Source: Kiritimatiellia bacterium
GTDB taxonomy: Bacteria > Verrucomicrobiota > Kiritimatiellia > RFP12 > UBA1067
Direction: 5' to 3'
Assembly (NCBI GenBank): GCA_016284515.1
Contig: JAEEOY010000150.1
Location: 1 to 32,878 of the forward strand
Length of the DNA stretch: 32,878 nt
Program-made: the position numbers and the translations under genes
Notes under the pieces: generated by a model
What the model was told of the DNA's origin: nothing
Database searches by the model: none
What the model saw: the letters and a program-made list of their open reading frames with translations, nothing else
In this document: positions 1-8,500 of the stretch, in pieces
Position numbering within the stretch: the first letter of the stretch is position 1
Layout: each line of letters opens with the position of its first letter

Positions 1-222
1 CTCGAGACGCTTTCCGTCGACCTCTCGGTCTCGGAGCGGCTTCTCGGGGAGATTCCCGATGGGATCTTGCGCGTCGCGGAAAGCGGCGTGCGCACGCGCG
101 CCGACATCGAGCGCCTCGCAGCAGCCGGCGCGGACGCCTTTCTCATCGGAACGACGCTCATGAAGTCGTCCGATCCCGTCGCGCAGCTCCGCGCGCTCAG
201 GGGCTCGGGGTCCTTAAAGTAA
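1..222 (+). CDS. trpC: Indole-3-glycerol phosphate synthase, C-terminal part (5' end outside window)
   Basis: Frame 1 reads LETLSVDLSVSERLLGEIPDGILRVAESGVRTRADIERLAAAGADAFLIGTTLMKSSDPVAQLRAL..., stop TAA at 220-222. ESGVRTRADIERLAAAGADAFLIGTTLMKSSDP is the TrpC C-terminal phosphate-binding motif. Confidence 0.87.
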   Translation, partial: LETLSVDLSVSERLLGEIPDGILRVAESGVRTRADIERLAAAGADAFLIGTTLMKSSDPVAQLRALRGSGSLK

Positions 223-257
223 AAGGGCTGCAGTTTTAGGGGGGGGGATTCTTCATG

Positions 258-260
258 AAC
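258..260. repeat. Target-site duplication AAC (left copy; right copy 1956-1958)
   Basis: AAC directly abuts both IS ends. Removing the IS and one AAC joins ATGAAC to GTATTTGCG and restores a start codon and signal peptide. Confidence 0.85.
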
Positions 261-285
261 TGCACTATTCCCCGAATTTGAGACA
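261..285 (+). repeat. IS left terminal inverted repeat (IRL)
   Basis: TGCACTATTCCCCGAATTTGAGACA, partner of 1931-1955. Confidence 0.92.
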
Positions 286-307
286 CTCTAAATAAGCCGT
301 AGTGGTT

Positions 308-334
308 GTCTCCTTTCTCAAGAAGGAAGGAGAC
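308..334 (+). promoter_or_regulatory. Hairpin sequestering the Shine-Dalgarno of the first IS ORF
   Basis: GTCTCCTT (308-315) is perfectly complementary to AAGGAGAC (327-334), which contains the SD AAGGAG upstream of ATG 339. Confidence 0.65.
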
Positions 335-338
335 TGTA

Positions 339-605
339 ATGGATGAAGGAAACGGGATGACCGGGGAATGGGCTGCGCATTGTGTTGCAGCCAGACCTAT
401 AGACGTCGAAGTCAAGCAGGAGTGCCTGAGATTGTTTAGGCAAGGAATGGGATACCATCGTGCGGCAAAGAGTCTTGGACTCAAGCCGTACACGGTCAGA
501 GACTGGCTCAGGCGTTTCAAGCGTCTGGACGACAGTTGGGCGACAACCGACGGATGGGGGCACTGGCGTCGCGCCGAGGCTCGAGATTTGGTAAAATACC
601 AACAT
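339..605 (+). CDS. IS3-family OrfA-like N-terminal helix-turn-helix segment (frame 3; no stop, runs on into the OrfB frame; end approximate)
   Basis: SD AAGGAAGGAG then ATG 339. Contains VKQECLRLFRQGMGYHRAAKSLGLKPYTVRDWLRRFKRL, typical of IS3 OrfA HTHs. Downstream, frame 3 becomes non-protein-like until OrfB. Confidence 0.6.
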
Positions 606-804
606 GAGTTCGAAAGCAATCCAGAATGCCGTCTCCCGCATGATGCAGGCGACCGATCCGGATGCGATACCAAAGGAGGTGTCGTTGGAGGAGAGGGTCA
701 GGCTGCTAGAGATGCAGAACAAGATTCTGCGCTTCCACCTTTCAGCGCAGCTGGAGCGTGGTCAGCAATCCTCGCCGGAGGATGTCGTAAAAAAAAAGAG
801 ATAG
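604..804 (+). CDS. IS3-family OrfA-type coiled-coil/leucine-zipper segment (frame 1)
   Basis: MSSKAIQNAVSRMMQATDPDAIPKEVSLEERVRLLEMQNKILRFHLSAQLERGQQSSPEDVVKKKR*, heptad-like, ending just past the A9 slippery run. Confidence 0.65.
   Translation: MSSKAIQNAVSRMMQATDPDAIPKEVSLEERVRLLEMQNKILRFHLSAQLERGQQSSPEDVVKKKR
777..797 (+). promoter_or_regulatory. Programmed -1 ribosomal frameshift signal (SD-like GGAGG plus A9 slippery run)
   Basis: GGAGG 777-781, then A9 at 789-797. Frame 1 reads GTA AAA AAA AAG AGA TAG; a -1 slip enters the OrfB frame AAA GAG ATA GAG GCG. Confidence 0.75.
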
Positions 805-1733
805 AGGCGGTCGAGAATCTTGTTGCGCAAGGATACGACCGCAAGTCCGCCTGCATTGCAGCCGGCATCAGCCGTGCGACATACTATCGAGCCAAGAAGA
901 TCTCGCCTAAGGCCGAGAGCGACGCCGAGCTTGTCGAACTAATGTGCAGGATCGAGAATGATCGCCACGTGTCGCAGACGTATGGCGTCGACAGGCTGAC
1001 CGCTGAGATCAACAGGCAACTCCAGATCATCGACGAGGCCACTTCCGCAAAGATCCTCGGCAATAGCGCCAGGGTGAATCGCAAACGCACACACAGGCTC
1101 ATGAAGCTGTACGGAGTGCATTCGCGCCTGCGCCGAAGAAGGCATCCCGACAACTATTACAAGGGCATCGGCGAGATGCTCAAGGTCAACAAGGCGCCAA
1201 ACATCCTGCACCGGGAGTTCAAGTCCGCCCGCCCAATGCTGAAGATGGCAACAGACGTTACATACATCCCCTGTAGTGACTCAAAGTTTTTATATCTCAG
1301 CACACTTCTCGACCTCTTCAACAAGGAGGTCGTGTCCTATACGATGAGCACCGTCAACTCTGTGGAGTTCGCAATCCGGATGATTCGCCTACTGCCGCCT
1401 GAATTACTGAAGAATGCCTTGCTGCATTCTGACCAGGGCAATCTCTACTGGTCAAATGCGTGGGTGGCGCTCTGCGACGAACTAGCCATCGTCCGCAGCA
1501 TGTCCAGGCGCGGCAACTGCTGGGACAATTCGCTCTGCGAAGGTTTCTTCTCTCACATGAAGAGCGATTTGGGCCTCTGCAAGTGCGACTACAGGCATCT
1601 ATTACCGGAAAGGACGATCAGGGCAATGATCGACGATTACATACCGTGGTACAACGAGGGCCGCATCCAAAAGAGTCTTAGTTACATGTCCCCGGTGGAA
1701 TACAAGAAGGCATTCGCAAGCGCTCTGAGCTGA
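789..1733 (+). CDS. IS3-family transposase OrfB (rve/DDE integrase core), made by -1 frameshift
   Basis: ATDVTYIP...HSDQGNLYWSN...MSRRGNCWDNSLCEGFFSHMKSD...YNEGRIQKSLSYMSPVEYKK: DDE triad and C-terminal IS3 motif present. Contained in track ORF 306..1733. Confidence 0.92.
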   Translation, partial: KKKEIEAVENLVAQGYDRKSACIAAGISRATYYRAKKISPKAESDAELVELMCRIENDRHVSQTYGVDRLTAEINRQLQIIDEATSAKILGNSARVNRKRTHRLMKLYGVHSRLRRRRHPDNYYKGIGEMLKVNKAPNILHREFKSARPMLKMATDVTYIPCSDSKFLYLSTLLDLFNKEVVSYTMSTVNSVEFAIRMIRLLPPELLKNALLHSDQGNLYWSNAWVALCDELAIVRSMSRRGNCWDNSLCEGFFSHMKSDLGLCKCDYRHLLPERTIRAMIDDYIPWYNEGRIQKSLSYMSPVEYKKAFASALS

Positions 1734-1760
1734 TACATAGCGCAAAGGCTAATCGACTAC

Positions 1761-4700
1761 ATGTCGGACTTGGAGTTCCAGGTGCGGATCGTCGCCGCCT
1801 CGGCCCTTTGGGCCGCCTCCTTCGGAGGACGGCGCCTCCTCCCCGCACCTGGAACCGGAGGAGCTTGCCCATCTTCCCGAAGTTCCGTCTTTTATGCTAC
1901 AATACAGTCACTCTCGAGATTGGAGGCTCATGTCTCACTTTCGGGGCATGGTGCAAACGTATTTGCGACGGCGGTGGTTTCAGTGTTTGCGGCGGCGGGA
2001 CTCCAGGCGGCGCCGACGCTCGAGGAGGGCTTTGCGAATCCGCCGGATTCCGCGAAGCCGCACACGTGGTACCACATGATGAACGGCAACGTCACGAAGG
2101 AGGGCATCACCTGCGACTTCGAGGCGCTCGCCAGGGTCGGCATCGGCGGAGTGCAGATGTTCGACGCGGGATGCGACATCCCGCCAGGCCCGCTCAAGTT
2201 CAATTCGGACGAATGGTTCGACATGTTCCGCCACGCGCAGAAGGAGGCGAAGCGGCTTGGACTTGAGATATGCATCCCCAACTGCTCCGGATGGTCCAGC
2301 TCGGGCGGTCCGTGGAACCCTCCCGCCAATGCGATGAAGGTAGTCGTCTTCACAGAGACGCCCGCGAAGGGTCCGTCGAGTTTCTCCGGGAAACTCCCGC
2401 GCACGTCCGACGACCACGGCTTCTACGATGACATAGCGGTTCTCGCCTATCCGACGCCGAAGCCGGGCGCGAAGCTTGACCGCCTCGACAACAAGACGTT
2501 CCGCGAGCGCGGGGACACGTGGCACGTTTCGCCGGAGTTCCCGAAGGACCAGCTCGTCGCGCGCGGAAGCGAAATCGACCTCACGGAGAGGATGACGAAG
2601 GACGGCTCGCTCGAGTGGGACGTCCCGGAAGGGGACTGGACTATTCTCCGCATAGGTTATATCTGCAACGGGCGCTGCAACCACCCCGCGTCCGAGAAGG
2701 GACGAGGACTCGAGGTGGACAAGCTTTCCGCCTCCGCGATGGACTACCACTTCGACCAGTACGTGACGCGCCTCTGCCGCGACCTCGGCATCACCGCGCA
2801 GACCGACAACTCGACTGGATTCAACAACATCCTGGTCGATTCGTACGAAGTCGGATGCCAGAACTGGACGCAGGGGCTCGACGCAGAGTTTGAACGGCGC
2901 ATGGGCTACTCGCCGCGTCCGTACCTCCCCGTCTTCGCCGGACGCGTCGTAGGCTCGGCGGACGAGAGCGAGCGCTTCCTCGAGGACTTCCGCCGCGTCG
3001 TCGCCGATCTCTTCGCGGAGAACTACGCCGGCAGGCTCACGAAGCTCTGCCACGACCACGGACTTATGTGCTCCATAGAGCCGTACGGGAACTGCACCTC
3101 CGACGACCTCCAGTACGGACAGGACATAGACGTTCCGATGGCCGAGTTCTGGTCCAACGCCGCTCTCGGCGCTCACGGTTCCGGTGATGTCGGAAACTCG
3201 CGCCACGCTGCGCATATCGCGCACGTGTGGGGACGCCGCTACGCCGCCACGGAGTCGTTCACGGCAGATCCCGGCTACGGCGGAAGATGGCGCACCACGC
3301 CGTTCTCGATCAAGAGCCAGGGAGACAAGGTCTTCGCCGCCGGCATAAACCGCATCATCTACCACCGCTTCACGCATCAGCCCTGGCCGGGGAGCGCGTA
3401 CCTTCCCGGAATGACGATGGGCCGCTGGGGGATGCACCTCGACCGCACGCAGACGTGGTGGGAGCTTTCGCCGGCGTGGTTCAGGTACCAGGCGCGCTGC
3501 CAGTGGATGCTGCAGGAGGGGGTGTTCGCCGCGGATGCGCTCTACTGGACCGGCGAGGAGGTCCCGAACGGAGGCGGCATGCCAGTCCCGATGCCCGACG
3601 GATACTCCTACGACGTCTGCGCGACGAAGGCCGTCGAAATGCTGTCCGTGAAGGACGGCAAGGTCGTCGCGCCGGGCGGGGTGGAGTATTCGCTCCTCGT
3701 CCTTCCCGAGACGGACACGATGAGCGAGCGGATGGTCCGCCGCATCGGCGAGCTCCTCGCCCAGGGCGCGAAGATCTGCGGACGCAGAAGGCCGACGCGC
3801 GCGCCTGGCCTGCGCGGATATCCCGACGCCGACGAGTCCGTCAGGAATCTCGCGGCGGAAGTGTGGTCGCGCGGCGTGATGGAGTGCAGCCCCGCGGACG
3901 CGTTTGCGAAGCTCGGCGTCAGGCCGGACTTCGCGGGGCAAGGCCTCTCGTGGATACACCGCAGGAGCGCAGCGTCCGCCAAGGGCGACAAGGCGGAGTG
4001 GTACTTCGTCGCGATGGACAACGAGGAGCCGGCGACGGTCGAGGCGTCGTTCCGCCAGCAGGGGCTCGAGCCCGAGATATGGGACGCGGAGACGGGATCG
4101 ATGCGTCCGGCGCGCGTGTGGCGCGAGGATGGCGGACGGACAGTTGTGCGCCTCGAGTTCCGTCCGAGCGGCTCCGCGTTTGTCGTCTTCAGGAAGCCCG
4201 CCAGGGGTCCGCATCTCGTCGCCGTCAAGGCGTCCGTCTCGCCGAATCCCGAGCCTGCGACTGGTGAGAAGGAGGTCCACACTCTCGTAGTAAAGAAGGC
4301 AGAGTACGGCACGGCGGCGAAGGACATCCGTCCGAAGTGCGTCGAAGTCTCGCCGTTCATCAAGCCGGGAGAGGCGGTGCGAATCGACAACACGCTCGCG
4401 GGTGATCCGGCGCAGGGAAAGGTCAAGACGACGGAGATCACGTACGCTGAGGGAGGAAAATCCATTACAAAGACAATCGGCGAGGGCGCGACGTTCACGC
4501 TGCCGAAGGGCGCGGAGCTGGTGGGCGCGTGGTACGGACTTCCCGAGCCCGGCTGGAAGAAGCCCGAGTCTCCGGCCGCGGACATCACCGCGAAGCTCAA
4601 CGCGCTCGTGAAGGACGGATATCTTTCAGTCGTCGTGAACAACGCTTTCGTCGGATACGATCCGGTTCCGGATGTCAGGAAGCGCACGAAGGTTGTGTAC

Positions 4701-5504
4701 GAGTATGACGGACGCGAGTCGACGGTCGAGGTGGGGGAGGGCACGCGCATCGTTATTCCCGCCCCTGTCGAAAAGAGCCAGCCACCGCCGGAGTGGGAGT
4801 GGACGGGCGACAGTGGTGTGCTTGCCTGGCAGCCGCTTGAAATGGAGCTCGAGTCGTCCGATGGCTCGAGGCGCACGCTCTCCGCGAAGCCTGCCGCGCC
4901 CGTTGCTGTCGAGGGCGAGTGGAAGGTCTCGTTCCCGTCCGGATGGGACGCGCCCGAGTCGACTGTGTTCCCGAAGCTGATTGCTTGGGACCGCCACGAG
5001 GACGAAGGCGTGAAGTACTTCTCCGGGACGGCGACGTATTCGAGGAAGGTCGCGCTGCCCGCTCCGCGTGCGGAAGGGCGCGTGATGCTCGACCTCGGGG
5101 TCGTCAAGGACTTCGCCGAGGTCAAGGTGAACGGGAGGGCGTATCCGGTCCTGTGGAAGCCTCCGTTCCGCGTGGACGTCACGGACGCGCTGCAGGATGG
5201 CTGCGAGTCGTTCGATCTCGAGGTGAAGGTCACGAACCTCTGGGCGAACAGGCTCATCGGTGACGACGGGCTCTATGCCGACGACTGCGAGTGGAGCGGC
5301 GCGAGCCACGCGGGGAAGAAGGAGATCGCGATCAGGGAGATTCCGCAGTGGGTGAAGGAGGGTCGCAAGTCCCCGACCGGACGCCACACCTTCACGACGT
5401 GGAAGCACTGGTCGAAGGAGGACGACCTTCTTCCGTCGGGCCTTATCGGTCCCGTCGTCCTCCGCTTCGGCGAGCCCGCAACCTGTCGCTCGACTGCTGA
5501 GTAA
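1761..5504 (+). CDS. GH106-like alpha-L-rhamnosidase, secreted; 5' end displaced by IS (native sequence resumes at 1956; native ATG at 255)
   Basis: GFANPPDSAKPHTWYHMMNGNVTKEGITCDFEALARVGIGGVQMFDAG...PNCSGWSSSGGPWNPP matches the GH106 N-terminal signature. C-terminal GTATYSRKVAL...VKVNGRAYPVLWKPPFRVDVTDAL resembles a galactose-binding-like domain. Residues encoded 1761-1955 come from the IS tail. Confidence 0.83.
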   Translation: MSDLEFQVRIVAASALWAASFGGRRLLPAPGTGGACPSSRSSVFYATIQSLSRLEAHVSLSGHGANVFATAVVSVFAAAGLQAAPTLEEGFANPPDSAKPHTWYHMMNGNVTKEGITCDFEALARVGIGGVQMFDAGCDIPPGPLKFNSDEWFDMFRHAQKEAKRLGLEICIPNCSGWSSSGGPWNPPANAMKVVVFTETPAKGPSSFSGKLPRTSDDHGFYDDIAVLAYPTPKPGAKLDRLDNKTFRERGDTWHVSPEFPKDQLVARGSEIDLTERMTKDGSLEWDVPEGDWTILRIGYICNGRCNHPASEKGRGLEVDKLSASAMDYHFDQYVTRLCRDLGITAQTDNSTGFNNILVDSYEVGCQNWTQGLDAEFERRMGYSPRPYLPVFAGRVVGSADESERFLEDFRRVVADLFAENYAGRLTKLCHDHGLMCSIEPYGNCTSDDLQYGQDIDVPMAEFWSNAALGAHGSGDVGNSRHAAHIAHVWGRRYAATESFTADPGYGGRWRTTPFSIKSQGDKVFAAGINRIIYHRFTHQPWPGSAYLPGMTMGRWGMHLDRTQTWWELSPAWFRYQARCQWMLQEGVFAADALYWTGEEVPNGGGMPVPMPDGYSYDVCATKAVEMLSVKDGKVVAPGGVEYSLLVLPETDTMSERMVRRIGELLAQGAKICGRRRPTRAPGLRGYPDADESVRNLAAEVWSRGVMECSPADAFAKLGVRPDFAGQGLSWIHRRSAASAKGDKAEWYFVAMDNEEPATVEASFRQQGLEPEIWDAETGSMRPARVWREDGGRTVVRLEFRPSGSAFVVFRKPARGPHLVAVKASVSPNPEPATGEKEVHTLVVKKAEYGTAAKDIRPKCVEVSPFIKPGEAVRIDNTLAGDPAQGKVKTTEITYAEGGKSITKTIGEGATFTLPKGAELVGAWYGLPEPGWKKPESPAADITAKLNALVKDGYLSVVVNNAFVGYDPVPDVRKRTKVVYEYDGRESTVEVGEGTRIVIPAPVEKSQPPPEWEWTGDSGVLAWQPLEMELESSDGSRRTLSAKPAAPVAVEGEWKVSFPSGWDAPESTVFPKLIAWDRHEDEGVKYFSGTATYSRKVALPAPRAEGRVMLDLGVVKDFAEVKVNGRAYPVLWKPPFRVDVTDALQDGCESFDLEVKVTNLWANRLIGDDGLYADDCEWSGASHAGKKEIAIREIPQWVKEGRKSPTGRHTFTTWKHWSKEDDLLPSGLIGPVVLRFGEPATCRSTAE
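1775..1855. repeat. Multibranched inverted repeat in the IS 3' non-coding tail
   Basis: Outer 13-bp arms GTTCCAGGTGCGG (1775-1787) / CCGCACCTGGAAC (1843-1855). Inner CGCCG/CGGCG and hairpins CGGCCC-TTT-GGGCCG (1801-1815) and CCTCC-TTC-GGAGG (1816-1828). Confidence 0.8.
1891..1903 (+). promoter_or_regulatory. Outward-facing extended -10 promoter near IS right end
   Basis: TTTATGCTACAAT: TGn plus TACAAT (1898-1903), directed into the interrupted GH106 gene. Confidence 0.5.
1931..1955 (-). repeat. IS right terminal inverted repeat (IRR)
   Basis: TGTCTCACTTTCGGGGCATGGTGCA; reverse complement TGCACCATGCCCCGAAAGTGAGACA. Confidence 0.92.
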
Positions 5505-5510
5505 TAGGAA

Positions 5511-5525
5511 TTTTTTTGGTATAAT
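5511..5525 (+). promoter_or_regulatory. Extended -10 promoter TTTTTTTGGTATAAT
   Basis: TATAAT 5520-5525; predicted +1 falls on the A of ATG 5532. Confidence 0.65.
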
Positions 5526-5531
5526 ATAGCC

Positions 5532-8500
5532 ATGAAAACGAAATTCCTCCGCTTCTGCGGCGCGATTGCGTCCGCAATTTCGCTCATTGCCGTGCCGGCG
5601 TCAGACGCGTCGGCGGAATCCGCCGCGTTCGTTTCGGGCGAGATCGCGGCCGAATACGAGACGGGTGCGGAGATTGCGCCTGTTGTGCTGTCCGTCGGCG
5701 GGCAGGCTCCGCTGACCGTGAGGGCGTCGGGACTTCCGTCTGGACTCAAGTTCACCGCGAAGGCGCTATCCGTGAAAGCGACAAGGACGACGCCCGCCCG
5801 CGAATACGAGGCGAACACGATCTACGGAATTCCGACGAGAAGCGGAATCTACAACGCGACCGTTTCCGTGACGGCGGCGGACAAGTCGAAGGCGTCGGAG
5901 GTGTTCAAGTTCGTCATTCGCAGGGAAGGTGAAAAAGTGATCGACCTCGTTGCTGGGGCCGAGGGATGCAAGGTTTCCGGAGCGGGCGTGTACCTTCCCG
6001 GGAAGAAGGTGTCGCTGAAGGCGACGGCGGCGCGTGGATACGTCTTCGCCGGATGGTATTCGGACGAGTCCTATTCGCAGCCGATCGACGGAAGCGCCGA
6101 CTTCCGCACTGCGTCGTATCCGTACGTCGTAGAAGACTCCGACGCGACATTCTACGCGAAGTTCATCCCGACGACCGACGACTGGGCGACTGTCGACGCG
6201 ACTGCCGAGGCCGAGTACGCGACTGGATCGGAGATCATTCCGATCGCGGTGGCGGCGGACGGAGGGAGCCTTCCGACGGCCAAGGTCGCTGGGCTGCCCT
6301 CGGGGTTGAAGTTCACGGCCAAGGAACTCGTCATCAAGGGACGCAACGGCACGGTGGAGCGCGAGTACGCGGCGAACACGATATACGGCACGCCGACGAA
6401 GAGCGGAATCTACAACGCGACGGTGACTGTCACCACTGCAGGAAAGGCAAAGGCGGAGAAGACCCTGAAATTCATAGTCCGCAAGGATGGCGAGATCATC
6501 CTCGATGCCGTCGCCTCCGCTCCTGGCTGCAAGACCGCCGGCGCCGGCGTGTACGCGGCAGGCAAGAAGGTGTCTCTTAGGGCGACTGCCGCACGCGGGT
6601 ACGTCTTCGCCGGATGGTACGCCGACTCGGGATTCTCGGTACCAGCCGAGACGCCGGTGGATTTCCGCACGGCGTCCATGTCGTACATCGCGCCAGAGTC
6701 CGACACGACGCTGTACGCAAAGTTCGTGGAGTCTTCCGAAGACGGCTCCATCGTGATCGACACGGCGGACTCGTATGCGTATTCCGACGCCGTTGACCTC
6801 AAGATCGGCGTCGAGTCGACGAGCCTTCCGAAGGTCACGGTCTCGACTCTTCCCGCTGGCCTCAAGTTCGATGCGTCGACGCTGACGATCAAGAAGGGCT
6901 CGGCGACTGTTCCGAAGCCCGGAACCTATCCGGTGACGGTAAAGGCGACGAACGCAACGGTGAAGAAGGCGGTGACGAAGACGTTCTCGATCATCGTGGA
7001 CAACTTCACGGACGCCAACGGGCTCTTCGTCGGCGGAATCGCCAATGGCCCAGGGGAGAAGTACGTCGCTACCGTCGGCGTGGAAGGAGGCGACCTGCCG
7101 TCGCTTGAGCTTCTGGACGAGACGATGAAGCTCAAGGTGTCCGGACTCCCCTCCGGCATGACGTACAACGCGTCCGAGAAGCGCATCGCCGGCGCGCCGT
7201 CCAAGGCGGGAACGTTCACCGTGACGCTCACGGTCGGGACGGCTGTCTCGACGTTCACGCTCGTCGTGGAGCCGCTTCCGGCGTGGCTCGTCGGCGACTT
7301 CGGATTCGAGCTCGACCTCACCGATGAAAGCGGCGCGACGAACCGCGTCACTTGGCAGGACATGACGGTGACTTCCGCCGGAAAGGTGAGCGGCAGGGGC
7401 AGGTGCTTCGCGCTCGCGAAGTCCGGCGACTGGACCGACGCGTGGCTCGGGAGCTGGACTGGACGCATCGTCTCGCGCTCCGGCGAGGGGAACTCCCTCA
7501 AGTTCGTCGTCCGCCGCGAGGTCGTGGCGAAGTCCGGCGACGCGACCGTAACATACGTTCTCAACCTCGAGGTGAAGCCCGAAGTCCTCAACGATGCCAC
7601 TGTGGCGTCGATCTCCGGAGCTCTCGAGCCCATTGACCACGGTATCACCGGCGGCGATGGCGACGGCATTGGCGCCGCAGTGTCCAACGGAGGCGCGAAC
7701 GTCTGGACGAAGGCCGCGGGCACCTCCGTAGCGCCGGCGTTCGAGTCCGGTCTGGCGATGAACCTGGACATCACGGCTCCGCAGACGAGGGTCTGGGATG
7801 CGAATGTGTCGTTCGAGTACGAGGGCACGCTGCACCTCGCGTTCGGGAAGTCCGGAAGCGTCACGTACTACTACGTATCGCCTGAGGACGGGTCCGTTTC
7901 CGGTACAGGAACGGCAACGCCCGTGCTCTCCAGCCAGACCGGCGGATCTGGCGGCGGCGGAATCATCGGCGGCGGCGATGCGCCCAAGCCCGCAGGCAAC
8001 GTCTGGCATTTCCCGGTCGTCTGCGCGCCGAAGGAGAGGACTCCGTTTGTCGCGATCGTTGAGATGAAGGCGTCCGCGGAGGAGAAGACCCTCTCCGCCG
8101 AAACGGTTGAGCTCTCCGTGCTGAAGATATGCGCCCGCGAGCGCGATCCGTACTGCGGCTGGGCCGCGGGAACGTTCTACGGCTACCATCTGCTGCGGAA
8201 CTTCGACAACGGAGGCGCCTCCGGCTACCACAGGGTCGTGAAGATCGCGCTTCCGAAGTCCGGCGGACTCACCATGTACGAAGTCGGCCTCGCGGGGACC
8301 GAGCGGATCACGCAGTACTACATGACGACGAACACCGTCGAGGCCGACGGCGCGCGGATGGAGTTCAACGCGTCCTTCAGCACGACGAAGAACTCGTACG
8401 GAAACAGCTCTGCTACAATCTCGCGGATATGGGAGACGCTCAGCAACGTGGTGGAGCGCGCGGAGCTCGATGGACTTGCGGTGGGGGTACTCGAGGGAGA

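Follow-up and report, generated by a model that had tools for sequence, protein, structure and literature searches.

An IS3-family insertion sequence at the start of a Kiritimatiellia GH106 gene probably took its site from a neighbouring poly-G tract

Introduction

Insertion sequences (IS) of the IS3 family, copy-out/paste-in elements with a DDE transposase such as IS911, IS2 and IS150, are mostly regarded as nearly random in their choice of target. IS911 reportedly makes targeted insertions next to end-like sequences, in work said to be that of Loot in 2002 and of Rousseau in 2007 and 2008. These studies are cited in PMC2909936. The present analysis concerns an IS3-family element of 1,695 bp that interrupts the gene of a secreted GH106 (alpha-L-rhamnosidase family) enzyme in contig JAEEOY010000150.1 of assembly GCA_016284515.1, a draft metagenome-assembled genome (MAG) of a rumen-type Kiritimatiellia bacterium in 292 contigs; the window is positions 1 to 32,878 of this contig. 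As in the targeting of IS911, the subgroup of this element inserts a set distance away from a site that has a direction and resembles part of the IS end. The site differed from that of IS911 in being a simple G homopolymer and not a whole inverted repeat, and in being apparently the usual target of the subgroup. The likeness of the target to the inverted repeat of the IS consisted of the G box, the polarity and the approximate spacing only.

Sites with a G/C pattern, as in the window subgroup, are used by IS186 and IS231A. A duplication GGGGTGCCCCC has been given for IS186B (PMC12102499), and bending and a consensus target are cited for IS231A in PMC3299598. Both elements belong to other families and have a symmetric target at the insertion point, unlike the one-sided homopolymer about 10 bp off found here. 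IS elements also insert in repetitive extragenic palindromic (REP) sequences (PMC1525189), a similarly reproducible choice of site in a repeated motif, but the REP is a palindrome and the motif here is a G homopolymer. The literature searched, from which most subscription papers and ISfinder were absent, contained no report of an IS3 element with a poly-G target.

Results and Discussion

Position of the insertion

The IS was interior to its contig and present as one copy only in its genome. It was bounded by imperfect inverted repeats of 26 bp (21 of 26 positions identical) with TG...CA tips, was flanked by duplicated AAC, and encoded a transposase that matched NCBIfam NF033516 (transpos_IS3; 233.9 bits, cut-off 160) and Pfam rve, rve_2 and HTH_21. 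Ends, duplication and domain matches combined identify a real IS3 element, far beyond chance. An initial annotation had already placed such an element directly after codon 2 of the GH106 gene, and the ends, the AAC duplication and the NF033516 and GH106 matches agreed with it; the span that it gave (255-1990) contained the element but was slightly too wide (Table 1).

A run of nine G (G9) ended 13 bp 5' of the IS, which put it 10 bp from the duplicated AAC; no other run of G or C in the window reached 7. The initial annotation had treated the position of the insertion as an accident; the G9 tract and a flank bias across the subgroup pointed otherwise. Neither the tract nor the start codon and outward promoter-like site in the right end of the IS had been mentioned in that annotation. 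Judged from sequence, the element probably (probability about 0.88) struck the GH106 start at a site set by G9, its subgroup inserting at a roughly fixed distance 3' of poly-G on the G strand. The location after codon 2 would thus follow from a habit of inserting beside rare G runs, here G9.

Table 1. Coordinates of the features at and around the insertion (positions in the window).
Feature	Position	Strand	Remarks
3' end of trpC (indole-3-glycerol phosphate synthase), upstream of the insertion	1..222	+	Pfam PF00218 IGPS, E 2.9e-14; begins at contig end
G9 tract	239..247	+	
Native start (ATG) and second codon (AAC) of GH106, severed by the IS	255..260	+	
Target duplication AAC, left copy	258..260	+	
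Insertion sequence, IS3 family	261..1955	+	Read from sequence and profile match
Left inverted repeat (IRL), TGCACTATTCCCCGAATTTGAGACAC	261..286	+	CCCC at tip positions 10-13
Transposase N-terminal helix-turn-helix frame (frame 0)	339..603	+	Pfam HTH_23, E 6.1e-11
Overlapping 66-aa frame (+1)	604..804	+	Resembles OrfA leucine-zipper part
A9G run, boundary of 66-aa frame and OrfB	789..798	+	Conserved in three elements
OrfB, DDE (rve) transposase	798..1733	+	NF033516; Pfam rve
Chimeric open reading frame, 1,247 aa	1761..5504	+	Residues 1-65 from the IS
Long hairpin enclosing two inner GC hairpins (three-way shape)	1774..1856	+	Region z -3.3
Outward promoter-like site	1874..1903	+	TTCCCG (1874-1879), 18 nt, TACAAT (1898-1903)
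GGAGG and ATG (1930) in the right end	1922..1932	+	Frame not that of GH106; stop 2077-2079
Right inverted repeat (IRR), reverse complement TGCACCATGCCCCGAAAGTGAGACAT	1930..1955	-	CCCC at tip positions 10-13
Target duplication AAC, right copy	1956..1958	+	
GH106 gene body without its start codon	1956..5504	+	Pfam PF17132; NCBIfam jelly-roll NF045579

G tracts beside related insertions

The left end was searched in 346 genomes of the class, which gave 20 copies in seven genomes; the right end, searched likewise with left-end cross-matches set apart, yielded 20 sites, again in these seven genomes. Where the IS is multi-copy, many of its copies sat at contig ends for that reason; 39 flanks were readable (19 left, 20 right). 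A run of 7 to 14 G pointing at the IS was present in 18 of the 39, ending 10 to 16 nt from the tip in all but one (17/18). Eighteen flanks had a run of at least 6 ending 9 to 16 nt from the tip, and in each of these, positions -19, -18 and -17 were G. A C run of at least 7 was absent from all 39 flanks, one of which had C6. Of 20,039 control positions taken from these flanks, none carried a tract of this kind.

Runs of at least eight G occurred once in 663 kb of the relatives' loci, and genome-wide at no more than 18 overlapping positions in a 3.86-Mb genome. With the density set to the highest among the five IS-bearing genomes in which tracts were counted, finding 16 flanks of this kind among the 39 had a binomial P of ~1e-53. 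This value is only a guide, because both flanks of an insertion entered the count. That the tracts always lie at gene starts was ruled out, many others being located elsewhere.

Rejoined insertions and empty alleles

Left and right flanks of one genome were rejoined through identical duplications of 3-4 bp, which reconstituted ten insertions: three in genome G263 (CCG, GCC, CCC), four in G264 (GTC, GTA, CTAG, CTCC), two in G076 (AGA, ACCG) and one in G035 (GCG). With the window included, the tract was one-sided in 11 of 11 insertions, being on the left in six, on the right in four (one with only G6) and, in the last, a left G7 at 21 nt. The distance from tract to duplicated bases was 7-12 nt, with one at 18. 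The IS occurred in both orientations relative to the tract, and therefore the tract, and not the IS, sets the polarity. Pairings G264b, G264c and G264d were supported, the first by a reading frame continuous across the rejoined site and the others by repeated sequence that matched across it.

Empty alleles of two G264 sites were found in G261, a genome of the same genus. One (280 nt, ~98% identity) had a G7 tract and a single GTA, and the other (224 nt, ~95%) a G8 tract and a single GTC. The tracts thus predate the insertions.

Several observations weigh against the G tract as the determinant of position. The number of independent events behind the 39 flanks is lower than 39, and several of the ten rejoined pairs rest solely on identity over 3-4 bp. 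A complete copy in G065 had neither tract nor duplication, and some unpaired flanks were free of tracts, which is compatible with a one-side rule but does not prove it. The window site itself had no empty allele in the collections searched. The distance from tract to duplication varied as given above, and the GGGG box of the IS ends was fixed at 9 nt.

A group II intron (Rfam RF00029, 53.5 bits) was located at 51-139 of L180, within a stretch that matches the left flank of IS insertion L107. Similar matches occurred many times in the genus of G263; L107 itself was below the Rfam cut-off.

Recognition of the tract

Read towards the tip, both IS ends have GGGG followed by 9 nt, with the same polarity as the tract. 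This suggests recognition of the tract as a pseudo-end: a transposase holding the IS ends would take the G tract for one of them. Both steps, recognition of the tract by a protein and its binding as a pseudo-end, we infer, and as the targeting mechanism the latter is tentative, with rather less than an even chance of being right. The resemblance is only approximate, because the tract distance varies and that of the GGGG box does not.

The variable distance, which shifts by several bases, and the use of runs of 8-14 G where the IS end has only GGGG leave room for recognition either by a host protein that binds such tracts or through the structure of the DNA, be it a G-quadruplex, an A-like helix, or a replication or R-loop barrier. 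Such recognition is a serious contender, falling only slightly short of an even chance, although the strict polarity and the one-sided spacing near the 9-nt GGGG box of the IS itself suggest contact by a protein. As a general statement, that this Kiritimatiellae IS3 subgroup uses G homopolymers as its normal directional target, reads them as a pseudo inverted repeat and so inserts beside contingency-like tracts, some near gene starts, is nearly balanced between probable and doubtful, and leans to doubtful.

An IS subgroup whose target is a simple, directional homopolymer some roughly constant distance away would reveal how such elements select their sites, and end mimicry could be tested directly with a short synthetic tract. 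A G-tract habit would also predict the landing sites of these elements in rumen Kiritimatiellae genomes.

The interrupted GH106 gene

The GH106 domain (PF17132) was matched with 602 bits (E 2e-180), and the BT4145-type specific model scored far below its cut-off (235 vs 1300). In the present allele, translation from ATG 255 gave only MNCTIPRI*, the product that the initial annotation had stated. With the IS and one AAC removed, the joined allele read MNVFATAVVSVFAAAGLQAAPTLEEGFANPPDSAKP and the rebuilt N-terminus was MNVFATAVVSVFAAAGLQAAPTLEEGF. The N-terminal 400 residues of the gene body were aligned to homologues from Kiritimatiellae MAGs, several from the ruminant gut, which were then read upstream in frame. 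The nearest homologues (L043, L057, L041, L039, L042) began with M and a signal peptide of ~20 residues, followed by (A)LTLEEGF..PP.SAKPHTWYH (for example, MNCKTLTLAAAITLACALPLGALTLEEGF in L057 and MNLNKTAIAAVTALTVTLPLCSLTLDEGF in L043).

Since the nearest homologues share this N-terminus of signal peptide and TLEEGF, ATG 255 is very probably the native start, and the 1,247-aa open reading frame is not the natural product. The initial annotation had proposed both a pre-insertion allele with intact signal peptide and GH106 N-terminus, a layout that the homologues reproduced, and an N-terminus of the 1,247-aa frame borrowed from the IS, as residues 1-65 proved to be. The uninterrupted junction that it would have sought in relatives did not turn up: in 95 relatives, longer gene-body matches were ~65-83% identical, with no orthologous junction and no empty allele of the window site, although two sister insertions do have empty alleles. 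Long IS-gene fusion frames, of which this GH106 one is an example, should not be annotated as natural proteins.

With the start lost and the IS-supplied ATG (1930) in the wrong frame, loss or mislocalisation of GH106 is likely; either production or export of the enzyme probably fails. A gain or switch of expression is unlikely; it would require transcription of GH106 from the IS promoter and an active enzyme made either as the 1,247-aa chimera or from an internal start (TTG 1920 or GTG 1974). The GH106 frame is open through the IS end, and the right end combines the promoter-like site with GGAGG and ATG, a design conserved in related right ends, which at the corresponding position had -35 (TTGAC-type) and -10 (TA..AT) boxes and a GTG preceded by a purine-rich site. 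A strict promoter consensus scan did not pick up the site at 1874-1903. Against such a gain, the ATG of the IS opens a different frame that ends after 49 codons, the chimera begins upstream of the promoter-like site with an N-terminus of IS sequence and no signal peptide, and GTG 1974 would yield a signal peptide that is cut short and lacks any basic residue.

Right ends in L108-L126 and window positions 1898-1955 had in common an ATG or GTG where the inverted repeat starts, together with a purine-rich site and an outward promoter-like site. The circle junction of the window element (right end, AAC, left end) would encode a 19-aa peptide, MSHFRGMVQTALFPEFETL.

Residues 836-1000 of the GH106 protein unexpectedly matched the Pfam DnaJ-like C11 C-terminal domain (E 2.5e-9), perhaps through a shared beta-sandwich signal. 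Near the end of the gene, 5414-5454 resembled the Guanidine-II riboswitch at 20 bits, below the Rfam cut-off of 32, probably by chance.

Chance insertion and assembly

Random insertion, with the codon-2 position due to chance and G9 incidental, is highly improbable. The window alone is one event, and target specificity in the IS3 family is generally weak, but copies from four other genomes had the same tract at the same distance, the control positions had none, and the empty alleles of G261 already carry the tract. Still less credible is a chimeric assembly. The genome is a draft MAG and multi-copy relatives of the IS break other contigs, but the 3-bp duplication is perfect, both ends are intact, and the trpC and GH106 flanks are coherent.

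Organization of the element

The element that probably took its site from G9 resembles the IS3 family in its DDE transposase, which scored above the cut-off, in its imperfect TG...CA ends, and in the 3-4 bp duplications of the window IS and its ten rejoined relatives. A probable -1 frameshift at A9G before OrfB would be a further likeness. It departs from the family in its strong one-sided poly-G target preference, in having helix-turn-helix and zipper-like parts split over two frames, and in a right end with hairpin and outward promoter-like site. Neither the exact end pattern nor OrfB retrieved any relatives from IMG/VR.

Frame 0 had no stop between the helix-turn-helix part and the start of the +1 frame, and stayed open alongside the latter. 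Across the three elements compared, third positions of the +1 frame were the most variable, and this frame (604-804) therefore looks coding. The OrfA-like parts thus occupied two frames, with OrfB back in frame 0 past the A9G run, the probable site of a predicted -1 frameshift. Motifs of OrfB were TDVTYI, HSDQGNLYWS and NSLCEGFFSHMK. A 475-aa open reading frame was ruled out as a single natural protein, third-position variation at 604-786 being in the +1 frame and not in frame 0. In the three elements, a TAAAAT/TACAAT box ended 6 nt ahead of the ATG/GTG of the 604-804 frame, possibly for a leaderless start.

The hairpin lay between OrfB and the right end of the IS. Its inner design recurred in G065, G053 (inverted, on the opposite strand), G002 and G033, with outer stems that differed completely from element to element and kept their pairing. 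An Rfam scan of positions 1-5600 returned no family for it. A genome-wide REP-like family was ruled out, the core pattern being absent or near-absent in most genomes, at no more than 2 per genome. Hairpin loci were L023, L024, L025 and L027, and the copy in L027 (G033:C49) was outside any recognisable IS.

A piece of 747 bp at 1501-2247 of L022 (G040:C80), on a contig of another species, was 99.9% identical to IS positions 166-912 and lacked the IS ends, which could reflect recent transfer or a chimeric assembly. It was bordered on both sides by TGGACCAT(G/T)CCCC, which resembles an IS tip.

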